The notes beneath the pieces are model-generated. The model was given only the letters and a program-made list of their open reading frames with translations, was not told the DNA's origin and made no database searches. 64,000 nt of DNA. It comes from Terriglobia bacterium (GTDB lineage: Bacteria; Acidobacteriota; Terriglobia; Bryobacterales; Bryobacteraceae). This document shows, piece after piece, positions 14,460 through 38,980 of this stretch (positions are counted from its first letter, which is position 1; the number at the start of each line of letters is the position of its first letter). The position numbers and the translations under genes were made by a program. The DNA lies in the NCBI GenBank assembly GCA_020073265.1, contig JAIQFN010000010.1:1-64000 (forward strand), in the 5' to 3' direction.

Positions 14460-15055
14460 GAGCGGTGCGCCACCAGCTCGGCGTAGGCTTCGGGATCGTC
14501 GACGTCGGTGACCACGGCGGAGTCGGGCACTTCGACGTACTCGGTCTGGCTGACGTAGCGATGGATCACATCGCTGGCTTTGGCTTCCGGCGGGAGCGCC
14601 AGCAGCTCGGCGATCAAGGGCCGCGCGATGCAGACCGGATGGCCGTGCTCGCCGCCATAGGTTGGCACGGTTACGGGCGCGCGTCCGGCCCGGAAGCGGG
14701 CCGCCAGAGTTTCGAGCGTGGAAGGCTGCAAGTGCGGATGATCGACCGGAAGGAACATCACGGCTTCCGCGTGGGCCGGAACGGCTTCAAGTCCGCACTG
14801 CAGCGAACTGAGCATGCCGCGTTCCGGGTCGGGATTCACCGTGAAGATGGCCTCGGGGGCGCGCTCGATTCCGGATTGGATCTCGGCGGCGTGGTAGCCG
14901 ACCACCACGATGACGGGATCGCACGCGGCCGAAAACAGGCGGATGAGCCGGTCCAGAAAGGTTTCGTTCTGAAAGCGAAGCAGCGCCTTGGGGCTGCCCA
15001 TGCGCCGCGACGCGCCGCCGGCAAGGATCAGACCGGCGATGGAAGGAGCTTTCAC
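14456..15055 (-). CDS. MobA/MocA-like nucleotidyltransferase (molybdenum-cofactor type)
   Basis: The 199-residue protein has the NTP-transferase signature LILAGGASRRMGSPKALLRF (residues 9-28), a Rossmann-like core (VIVVVGYH), and FLPVDHPH, the usual metal-binding Asp region. Closest in layout are CTP:molybdopterin cytidylyltransferases (MocA/YgfJ type), which attach a nucleotide to the molybdenum cofactor of xanthine-dehydrogenase-type enzymes; N-acyl sugar nucleotidyltransferase is a weaker alternative. The start is the GTG at 15055, overlapping the xdhC stop in a GTGA, which removes a long non-homologous extension. Location behind xdhC supports the Mo-cofactor role. Confidence 0.82.
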   Translation of the reverse strand: MKAPSIAGLILAGGASRRMGSPKALLRFQNETFLDRLIRLFSAACDPVIVVVGYHAAEIQSGIERAPEAIFTVNPDPERGMLSSLQCGLEAVPAHAEAVMFLPVDHPHLQPSTLETLAARFRAGRAPVTVPTYGGEHGHPVCIARPLIAELLALPPEAKASDVIHRYVSQTEYVEVPDSAVVTDVDDPEAYAELVAHRS

Positions 15056-15888
15056 TTGAGAACGGCTCGCGACTCCACCGTCGCGAAAATCGACTTGGCC
15101 AGCCTGCGCCAGTCCGATTCCGGCGCGCGCCGCATGGCGATCATCTCGCCCACCACCGAGATGGCGATCTCCTCGGGCGTAATCGCGCCGATTTCCAGCC
15201 CCATGGGCGCGAACGTCCGCTCGAAGGCCGAGCGCGGGAAGCCTTCCTTCTCGAGCTCCTTCACCACGCCGATCACCTTGCGCTTGCTTCCGATCATGGC
15301 AATGTACTTGGCGTTGGTTCCCACCGCCCAACGCAGCACGCGCATGTCGTCGCGATGCCCGCGCGTGACGATGATCAGATAGCTGGTGTCGCGGATCGGC
15401 AGTTTCGGAAAGACTTCCTCGTACTCTTCGGCGTAGATTTCGTCGGCCTCCGGGAAGCGCTCGCGATTGGCGAAGGCTTCGCGATTGTCCACCACCACGG
15501 TGGCGAAACCGGCCATGGTGGCCACCTTGGAAATGCTCTTCGAAATATGTCCGGCGCCGAAGATAAAGGCGCGCGGCTGAGGCACCACCGGCTCGACGAA
15601 CACGCTCAATTGGCCTCCGCAGATCAGTCCATTATCGTACGCGGCGTCCTGACCGAGGCTGAAATTCATGTGGCGCGCGCGTTCCTCCTGCATGACTTCG
15701 CGGGCGGCGTTCCACACTTCGGCCTCGACGCAGCCTCCGCCGATGGTCCCGATCATGGACCCGTCCTCGCGCACCAGCAGCTTGGCGGATTCATAGCTGG
15801 GTATGGAGCCGTTCACCTGTACGATGGTCGCCAGCGCGCATTTCTGCCCGAGGCGCCGCAGCCGGACCACTTCCTCGTAGATGTCCAT
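15052..15888 (-). CDS. xdhC: XdhC-family molybdoenzyme maturation factor
   Basis: The 278-residue protein has the XdhC/CoxI N-terminal domain (residues 1-70: ALATIVQVNGSIPSYESAKL, then IGTIGGGCVEAEV) and a C-terminal Rossmann domain (FIFGAGHISKSISKVA near 105). XdhC proteins bind and help sulfurate the molybdenum cofactor before insertion into xanthine-dehydrogenase-like enzymes. No such enzyme is encoded in this window. It leads a coupled operon with the nucleotidyltransferase and AsmA genes. A TATAAT lies nine bases before its ATG, giving a leader of only a few bases; no good ribosome site is visible. Confidence 0.9.
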   Translation of the reverse strand: MDIYEEVVRLRRLGQKCALATIVQVNGSIPSYESAKLLVREDGSMIGTIGGGCVEAEVWNAAREVMQEERARHMNFSLGQDAAYDNGLICGGQLSVFVEPVVPQPRAFIFGAGHISKSISKVATMAGFATVVVDNREAFANRERFPEADEIYAEEYEEVFPKLPIRDTSYLIIVTRGHRDDMRVLRWAVGTNAKYIAMIGSKRKVIGVVKELEKEGFPRSAFERTFAPMGLEIGAITPEEIAISVVGEMIAMRRAPESDWRRLAKSIFATVESRAVLK

Positions 15889-15897
15889 CTCGTATGA

Positions 15898-15903
15898 ATT
15901 ATA
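15898..15903 (-). promoter_or_regulatory. -10 element of xdhC
   Basis: On the minus strand GGTATAAT ends nine bases before the xdhC ATG, implying a start point very close to the codon. A -35 box at 17-base spacing would fall at 15921-15926, inside the left REP arm, and reads CGTCTG, not a good match. The RAYT element may have displaced the original upstream promoter half. Confidence 0.5.
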
Positions 15904-15915
15904 CCGTGGGGGGAG

Positions 15916-15936
15916 GGGGACAGACGGAACGTTTCC
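15916..15936. repeat. left REP arm of the RAYT unit
   Basis: Begins GGGGACAGACGGAACG. It can fold on itself with G-T wobbles (GGGGAC against GTTTCC) and is an exact inverse of 16752-16772. Confidence 0.85.
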
Positions 15937-15971
15937 GAGATTTCCCGACGCCTCGGCGCACTTGCTGCTAT

Positions 15972-16679
15972 ATGCCTCGCTTGTCTCGCGTCGTGGCGAC
16001 CGGAATACCGCACCATATCACCCAACGAGGTAACGCCCAACGGCCGGTCTTCGAAGACGACACCGATCGACTGGTATACCTCCGGTTGCTCGGCTTGAAC
16101 TGCGAGAGCTATGACCTCGCCATCGTGGGCTATTGCCTGATGCCCAATCATGTCCACCTGGTGGCGATTCCGGGCCGGGACGACTCGATGAAGCTGGCGT
16201 TGCGCCACACGCACGGCCGCTATGCCACGTATCTGAACGGGCGCCAGGGGGCTACGGGGCATGTCTGGCAAGGGCGCTTCTACTCCTGCCCGTTGGACGC
16301 AAATCACTTTTGGGCCGCGCTGCGCTACACCGAAATGAACCCTGTACGGGCGGGAATGGTGGCCGATCCGGCCGTCTACTGCTGGTCCAGCGCTGCGTCG
16401 CACTGTGGCCGAGCCGGTCGATCGGTCCCCCTGCATCTGACGCAAAAGGTCTGGCGGGACTGCTGGAGCGCGAGGTCCTGGCGGGATTTCCTGGATGCCT
16501 CCTCCGCAGCCGAGGAAACCCTCGCGATCCGAACGAAAACGCACTCAGGCCGTCCGCTGGGTACGGCGGATTTTGTGGACTCGCTCGAGCGGACCCTACG
16601 ACGTACCCTGGCGCCGGAACGAGGCGGGCGACCGCGCAAGCAGGTGGCCGACGCAATACAACCGGTTCTGGCGGTCTAG
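15972..16679 (+). CDS. REP-associated tyrosine transposase (RAYT, Y1/IS200-like)
   Basis: The 235-residue protein is of the Y1 HUH-transposase superfamily. The N-terminus VVATGIPHHITQRGN is the family signature, NHVHLV carries the HUH metal ligands His60 and His62, and the helix YATYLNGRQGATGHVWQGRF contains the likely nucleophile Tyr84 or Tyr87. Length and the GHVWQGRFYS motif fit RAYTs rather than IS200 TnpA. RAYTs recognise and nick REP hairpins and are usually single-copy, domesticated genes (family knowledge). The ATG at 15972 starts the conserved domain; upstream codons are translated REP sequence. No strong ribosome site is present, so expression is probably low. Confidence 0.9.
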   Translation: MPRLSRVVATGIPHHITQRGNAQRPVFEDDTDRLVYLRLLGLNCESYDLAIVGYCLMPNHVHLVAIPGRDDSMKLALRHTHGRYATYLNGRQGATGHVWQGRFYSCPLDANHFWAALRYTEMNPVRAGMVADPAVYCWSSAASHCGRAGRSVPLHLTQKVWRDCWSARSWRDFLDASSAAEETLAIRTKTHSGRPLGTADFVDSLERTLRRTLAPERGGRPRKQVADAIQPVLAV

Positions 16680-16751
16680 AACTCCTGCCGAGCCCGAGCG
16701 TCCTTAGAAGCCGAGTCGGGCCTACGTCGTGGCGTACAATTAGAAAAATAA

Positions 16752-16772
16752 GGAAACGTTCCGTCTGTCCCC
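16752..16772. repeat. right REP arm of the RAYT unit
   Basis: Begins GGAAACGTTCCGTCTG. It is followed after four bases by the conserved start region of the HAD phosphatase. A TACAAT at 16735-16740 just outside could drive rightward transcription through the arm. Confidence 0.85.
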
Positions 16773-16776
16773 AGGT

Positions 16777-17376
16777 TTTAAGGCTGTCATCTTCGACCTC
16801 GGCAACGTTATCGTGCCGTTTGATTTCAAGCGCGCCTACGCCCGGCTCGGGCCGCTTTCCCCTTACGCCGCCCAGGATATCCCCACCCGGCTCCGCTCCA
16901 CCGACCTGGTGCATCGCTTCGAGACCGGTCAAATAGAGCCCGAACAATTCGTCCAGGAACTCGCGGCGGTGCTCGAATTCAACATCACTTACGCCGAATT
17001 CTGCGAACTCTGGAGCTGCGTCTTCCTTCCGGAAACGCTGGTTCCCGATGCCCTGATCGCCTCGCTCGCCACCCGCTACCGCCTGCTGGTTCTGTCCAAC
17101 ACCAACGCGATCCATTTCCCCATGCTGCGGTCCAGGTATCCCATCCTCGGCCATTTCCATGGCTTCGTTCTGTCCTATGAAGTAGGCGCGGCCAAGCCCT
17201 CCGCCAGAATCTATCAGGAGGCCATCCGGCAGGCCGGATGCAGCGCCGCGGAATGCTTTTTCACCGACGACATCCCGCTGTATGTGGAAGCCGCCCGCGA
17301 ACAAGGCATGGACGCTGTTCAATTCCAGTCGGCCGCCCAGATCGAGAGCGAGCTGCGGTCGCGGGGCGCGCTGTAA
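16777..17376 (+). CDS. HAD-superfamily (YihX-like) phosphatase with lost start codon
   Basis: From 16777 the frame encodes FKAVIFDLGNVIVPFDFKRA, the motif-I start of HAD-IA phosphatases resembling YihX (glucose-1-phosphate phosphatase). It continues with LVLSNTN (motif II), GAAKPSARIYQ (motif III) and CFFTDD (motif IV). All catalytic motifs are intact over about 199 residues. The problem is the start: the first canonical start is a GTG at 16813, which would delete the nucleophile Asp in FDLGN. Upstream the frame runs open into the REP arm to a stop at 16741 and offers only a CTG at 16765, ten bases after AAGGA. The RAYT unit probably removed the native start. The gene is either silenced or started non-canonically. 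Confidence 0.7.
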   Translation, partial: FKAVIFDLGNVIVPFDFKRAYARLGPLSPYAAQDIPTRLRSTDLVHRFETGQIEPEQFVQELAAVLEFNITYAEFCELWSCVFLPETLVPDALIASLATRYRLLVLSNTNAIHFPMLRSRYPILGHFHGFVLSYEVGAAKPSARIYQEAIRQAGCSAAECFFTDDIPLYVEAAREQGMDAVQFQSAAQIESELRSRGAL

Positions 17377-17424
17377 AGACCGGAATTAGCGCCGAAGCGC
17401 CATTAAACTTTCACAATTTTCATA

Positions 17425-17453
17425 TTGACATGCCGCTTGTTTCGGCCTAAAGT
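17425..17453 (+). promoter_or_regulatory. sigma-70-type promoter of the first Oar-like gene
   Basis: TTGACA (17425-17430), a 17-base spacer, and TAAAGT (17448-17453). The predicted leader is about 140 bases to the ATG at 17598. Confidence 0.65.
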
Positions 17454-17597
17454 TGTTCAATCACTCTTCAAGGGGAGGGGTACGGATGGAGAGATGGGCT
17501 CCGTTGCCGGTACTCGTTTACCGGCTCACTAATTCGACCTGTGCCCGCGCGTCTCTAAGCACCTCCCCAGCCCAATTCAAGCCGAAAGGACCAGTTC

Positions 17598-26708: not shown

Positions 26709-26805
26709 AAAAACTCGGGGACAGACGAATCTGTCCCCAAAGCACAATCCGCCAAGCAACAGCCTATCGCCCACCGTGGACAGATCCGTCTGTCCCCGAG
26801 TTTTT
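26709..26805. repeat. BIME 4: inverted pair of REP hairpins
   Basis: The left arm ACTCGGGGACAGACGAATC (hairpin GGGGACAGA / TCTGTCCCC with CGAA loop, to 26738) and the right arm GGACAGATCCGTCTGTCC (from 26778, then CCGAGTTTTT) are inverted copies of each other. It starts directly after a TAG stop. The right end, with its T5 run, could terminate transcription. Confidence 0.85.
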
Positions 26806-38886: not shown

Positions 38887-38980
38887 CTCGGGGACAGACG
38901 AATCTGTCCCAAGCGGCAATATTTTCCTTGGAGCGATGCCAGGTCTTCGCGCGTGGACAGATCCGTCTGTCCCCGAGTTT
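38886..38980. repeat. BIME 5: inverted pair of REP hairpins
   Basis: The left arm ACTCGGGGACAGACGAATC starts on the final base of the upstream TGA; the right arm is TGGACAGATCCGTCTGTCC and then CCGAGTTT (38954-38980). The spacer, read in reverse, shares GCGCGAAGACC and the CGCTTGGGACAGATTCGTC junction with BIME 2. Confidence 0.85.

Follow-up and report, generated by a model that had tools for sequence, protein, structure and literature searches.

The window analyzed here is a 64,000-nucleotide stretch from the draft genome of a Terriglobia bacterium (6.41 Mb, 131 contigs). It carries a REP-associated tyrosine transposase (RAYT) gene that is flanked by REP sequences and lies between xdhC and the frame of a YihX-like HAD phosphatase. 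The RAYT-REP unit measures 857 bp from arm to arm. The divergent neighbor xdhC (15052–15888, minus strand) belongs to the XdhC/CoxI family (PF13478, E value, 1.1e-38; PF02625, E value, 1.3e-21), and 27 bp separate its start codon at 15888 from the left REP arm. Comparison by eye with the sequences upstream of xdhC in four genomes of the genus placed this flank (15889–15915) in the 5′ region of xdhC; it contains the block TGAATTATACCG and has GGGAG at its arm-side end. The left arm, GGGGACAGACGGAACGTTTCC (15916–15936, plus strand), and the right arm (16752–16772, minus strand) are 21 nt each, inverted, and 100% complementary. The right arm is bordered by AGGTTTT (16773–16779, plus strand), and the phosphatase frame, which has no canonical start, occupies 16780–17376 on the plus strand.

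The RAYT gene (15972–16679, plus strand) probably starts at ATG 15972 (MPRLSRVV...) and stops at TAG 16677–16679, and its open frame extends upstream to ATG 15894. Its product contains a Y1_Tnp domain (PF01797; E value, 3.8e-8; 33.9 bits against a cut-off of 23). The only NCBIfam match was NF047646, the REP-associated tyrosine transposase family (E value, 2.1e-16), at 60.1 bits against a cut-off of 80 bits. An HVH motif and a tyrosine preceding NPVRAG were recognized by eye. The genome holds one full-length RAYT match, and the second match is a part-match with 35% identity and a stop; the RAYT is thus a single copy and is not multiplying as an insertion sequence does. The RAYT and REP-REPIN system described earlier (Nunvar 2010, PMC2817692; Bertels and Rainey 2011, PMC3116915) likewise has a single-copy Y1 transposase between inverted REPs, with the REP of the unit dispersed through the genome as singles and close inverted pairs.

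The REPs that flank the RAYT in inverted orientation are also present elsewhere in the genome. With up to three mismatches allowed, 23 arm copies were found, comprising 16 exact copies (both arms of the unit included), three with one mismatch, three with two, and one with three; a reversed-pattern control gave no match in the same genome. This number is low compared with the more than 100 copies given as usual in the abstract of PMC2817692. Nineteen copies have one mismatch or none. AGGTTT, itself allowed one mismatch, stands directly outside eight of these, the right arm of the unit included (seven of 18 when that arm is set aside), GGGAG stands outside four, among them the left arm of the unit, and seven have neither border. 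The outer neighbors are thus mostly AGGTTT or GGGAG, not the GTAG or CGTC tags named in the title of PMC3733652. Since the sequences of the eight AGGTTT-bordered copies diverge beyond it, we placed the right end of the element at the AGGTTT in 16773–16778. The element would thus end in CCCCAGGTTT(T), which covers 16774–16776. The next base, T 16779, could belong to either side, and native HAD sequence would resume near AAG 16780, a position held by a lysine or arginine codon in most relatives. No arm copy (up to three mismatches) was present in any of the four same-genus genomes. In the 30 relatives searched with the same threshold, only G005 (two matches) and G006 (one match) carried the arm, and the reversed control gave one match, in G017.

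Several other REP copies were inspected along with those of the unit. In one conserved gene (L031:1494–1521), a REP end of 28 bases, arm plus AGGTTTT, is read in frame within a 673-aa open frame (...NPETFRLSPGFDAPTPQQ...); compared with G001 and G002, it introduces just two single-residue gaps and looks more like a replacement than an insertion. Another copy (L032:1501–1521) is read in frame within an open frame of 596 aa, inside a stretch rich in proline that is partly absent from the G004 relative. An exact 21-mer arm in a membrane-protein-like gene (L037:1501–1521) aligns without gaps with native sequence of 14 relatives. REPs in coding sequence were rejected as a general rule: the three two-mismatch matches L050–L052 align with native protein sequence of relatives and may therefore be coincidences, and the GTDGTI of L052 is itself present in six of the 11 relatives shown. 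REP-like sequences (GTCTGTCACC... and GTCTGTCCCCGAGTTT) also occur at 1153–1247, 26711–26803, and 38965–38980 of the window, two of them as inverted pairs, and perhaps represent another REP subfamily. In the relative G023 (L023:127–192), three bases separate the HAD ATG from a palindrome of 66 bp, perfect as read by eye, whose arms are REP-like (CTGTCCCC). Here a REP pair appears to have inserted independently at the start of the HAD gene, with the start codon kept.

Comparison with the genus indicated what the region may have looked like before the element arrived. In three of the four same-genus genomes (G001, G002, and G004), xdhC and the HAD gene face each other on one contig, with start-codon-to-start-codon gaps of 197, 1450, and 633 bp, respectively, and in G003 they lie on different contigs. 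All five genomes of the genus share a block, TGAATTATA.CG, immediately before xdhC. The facing pair and this block indicate that the two flanks of the unit are old neighbors. The gap has also received other genes: that of G002 contains ORFs for a Phd-type antitoxin and a PIN-domain protein, resembling a toxin-antitoxin pair (L006:824–1469), and that of G004 contains an ORF for a PIN-domain protein, the stop codon of which overlaps the start of HAD (L005:2097–2399). The xdhC of G001 (L004:2298–3057) matches in two pieces, with about residues 36–60 missing and four bases between the pieces, which points to a frameshifting deletion or to a fault in the assembly. Of the gap in the window, the 27 bp beside xdhC are retained and the remainder up to about the third HAD codon is element sequence, so native bases seem to have been lost during the insertion or alongside it.

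The HAD frame runs from AAG 16780 to the stop TAA at 17374–17376 (PF00702; E value, 1.9e-9). An earlier note on this DNA had described the rest of the gene as intact, and indeed its 197 codons hold no stop and the HAD motifs are in place. The best match of solved structure was the alpha-D-glucose-1-phosphate phosphatase YihX (8pno, 2b0c; E value, 1.7e-22 for 8pno; residues 3–182), whose FDLGNV, LSNTN, RKP, and FDD align with FDLGNV, LSNTN, AKP, and TDD of the window. We take these to be motif I with the Asp (16795–16797), motif II with the Ser, motif III with the Lys, and motif IV with the Asp-Asp pair. The frame differs from YihX in that its start is missing, and it scores 99.3 bits against the 295-bit cut-off of the glucose-1-phosphatase equivalog NF006991. 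Its closest named relatives are metagenome-assembled genomes labeled Acidobacteriia, Acidobacteria, Bryobacteraceae, or Bryobacterales, and Ignavibacteriales and Bacteroidales are among the most distant of a further set of 12 HAD loci. At an E value of 0.001, an HAD match was found in 46 of 61 genomes, that of the window included. The remaining 15 genomes gave no match, which suggests that the gene can be dispensable.

The same note had reported that no ATG, GTG, or TTG stands in frame between TAG 16741–16743 and motif I. This was confirmed: from the TAG on, the codons read AAA AAT AAG GAA ACG TTC CGT CTG TCC CCA GGT TTT AAG GCT, and the first in-frame codon of this kind is GTG 16813. An in-frame GTG at 16729 is separated from the gene by the TAG. 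Its distance of five bases between the REP arm and motif I needs correction, as AVIFDLGNV begins at 16783, ten bases right of the arm end at 16772 and three bases right of the element when the AGGTTTT tail is counted. The CTG at 16765–16767 does lie inside the right arm with AAGGA at 16750–16754 before it, as the note had it; the putative Shine-Dalgarno-like sequence reads TAAGGA from 16749 (16749–16754) and ends 10 nt before the CTG. The TACAAT named as a possible promoter is present at 16735–16740.

For comparison, 38 rows of relatives were checked, made up of 29 loci (the best 30 places in the 46 matched genomes include that of the window itself) and nine of the 12 further loci, the three most distant being left out; two rows (L085 and L089) repeat L007 and L024, so the distinct loci number 36. 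Every row has an in-frame ATG, GTG, or TTG before motif I, so the lack of one in the window goes beyond chance, and the objection that relatives free of the RAYT might lack a start as well is answered. In 34 of the 38 rows, such a codon precedes the motif I Asp by exactly seven codons: it is the nearest start-type codon in 31 (by script), and in L012, L086, and L087 the ATG at this place stands behind a nearer Val GTG. In the four exceptions it stands at nine codons (L015, L026, and L090) or, as an ATG read directly from the codons, at six (L092). We infer that these codons are the true starts. The corresponding place in the window is GGT (16774–16776), which belongs to the AGGTTT of the element right end; leader and start codon, and probably codon 2, would thus have been replaced by element DNA. 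The claim that the phosphatase lost its start to the RAYT unit is therefore supported. Three other possibilities were considered. GTG 15906–15908 in the left flank was rejected as an old HAD start, as CCGTG also comes after the xdhC 5′ block of G002 and G003, where the HAD start lies 1450 bp away and on another contig, respectively. For a clean insertion without loss, with an element ending in AGGTTT(T), counting bases by hand revealed no left-flank start codon that would be in frame with HAD. An in-frame fusion of RAYT and HAD was rejected for the different frame and intervening stops.

The event had also been called recent, and the absence of the arm from all four same-genus genomes together with the intact frame supports this. 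The HAD product shares 61–63% identity with its counterparts in the four same-genus genomes; among themselves, these counterparts are 63–67% identical except for the G001/G002 pair at 94%. The identity of XdhC to its counterparts is 85–89% (89% in G002, 88% in G003, and 89% in G004). The end branch of the window's HAD protein measures 0.25, against 0.34 for G004 and 0.36 for G003, in a tree in which its placing is weak (40% of 200 bootstrap trees recover the genus as a single clade). An intact body on a branch that is not long makes the event look young, but a young event and continued use fit these two observations alike and are not distinguishable by them.

As to whether the gene could still be translated, the open frame runs through the REP arm and AGGTTTT. 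CTG 16765 is the sole CTG in the open stretch before the HAD gene, and another near-cognate codon, ACG 16756, comes merely 1 nt after TAAGGA. CTG 16765 is one of just eight among the 2540 CTGs on both strands of the window with a 6-nt match to TAAGGAGGT at 4–11 nt, in a test made after the candidate had been seen. According to PMC11497404, CUG makes up 0.024% of bacterial initiation codons and supports 0.86% of AUG expression. A promoter scan of 15850–17000 returned no promoter-like site, and TACAAT is present at seven places in the window, both strands counted. The search of 15850–17000 likewise detected no terminator-like site on the plus strand, and the two genes share a strand, so co-transcription of RAYT and HAD may be possible. 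The RNA fold z-score was 0.09, and Rfam gave no match at the gathering threshold in 15700–17500. Given the low yield of CUG in that source and the lack of a promoter-like site, the HAD gene is most likely silenced or expressed at about 1% from CTG 16765.

Taken together, we consider it probable (roughly 0.72) that a RAYT-REP unit took the start of the HAD gene and that the gene is now a young, start-less, and undecayed frame that is silenced or translated at about 1% from the CUG at 16765. The unit would have entered the xdhC–HAD intergenic region, and the same or another event would have removed the rest of that region, including the HAD leader, the start codon, and probably codon 2. The element right end, CCCCAGGTTTT, would thereby have come to abut codon 3 (Lys, AAG 16780), leaving the frame otherwise untouched; with no ATG, GTG, or TTG, translation would be abolished or fall to about 1% from the CUG in the REP arm. 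Insertion of the IS200/IS605 type is not known to delete target DNA, so an extra loss must be assumed. That the REP arm instead acts as a working start, giving M-S-P-G-F-K-A-V-I-F-D from CTG 16765 on mRNA from the RAYT transcript or from a promoter at TACAAT 16735, is possible but rather unlikely. The intact frame with its motifs, the branch that is not long, the rarity of the Shine-Dalgarno context among CTGs, and the shared strand without an intervening terminator-like site speak for such a putative start; the yield of CUG below 1% of AUG in the cited text, the empty promoter scan, the post hoc nature of the context test, and the ATG, GTG, or TTG present instead in all 38 rows speak against it.

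The remaining explanations carry still less weight. The arm and AGGTTT are repeated in a draft genome of 131 contigs, where contigs could have been misjoined at a REP copy with the true HAD upstream region elsewhere, but the facing xdhC–HAD arrangement in the same-genus genomes other than G003, where the genes are on different contigs, and the at most 27% identity of all other HAD matches in the genome make an assembly artefact highly improbable. The gap is prone to other genes, as G002 and G004 illustrate, and earlier events could have left the HAD gene dead or start-less before the element arrived; 197 codons without a stop and the branch length render this very remote. Least credible is a downstream start. 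A 187-aa ORF does begin at GTG 16813, yet this codon lies past the catalytic Asp and would drop motif I with its nucleophile, which excludes the functional protein from GTG 16813 that had been proposed as a refutation, while ATC 16789 would drop most of the first strand, and the start codon precedes the Asp in every relative row.

A broader idea is that REP ends of this family can act as prefabricated sites of translation initiation, since both TAAGGA and CTG are present in the arm with its border; a start-removing RAYT unit would then supply its own start, and the HAD gene would live on it. We regard this as quite unlikely. A REP-supplied start codon was not mentioned in the titles and abstract beginnings of the listed matches from the literature on RAYTs, REPs, and near-cognate starts. 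Insertion sequences are known to disrupt the 5′ ends of genes, a mobile element removing the leader and start of its neighbor, and the loss of the HAD leader and start is a good example of this known kind of event, that is, ordinary damage. What sets it apart is that the RAYT-REP end contributes in-frame codons, together with a possible CTG start preceded by TAAGGA. Gene prediction may overlook the HAD gene or place its start at GTG 16813 and so drop the catalytic Asp. The locus shows, as found in nature, a mobile palindrome unit that has taken the 5′ end of a host gene with no visible decay yet, and it provides a simple test case for the ability of a CUG within a REP to sustain a gene.
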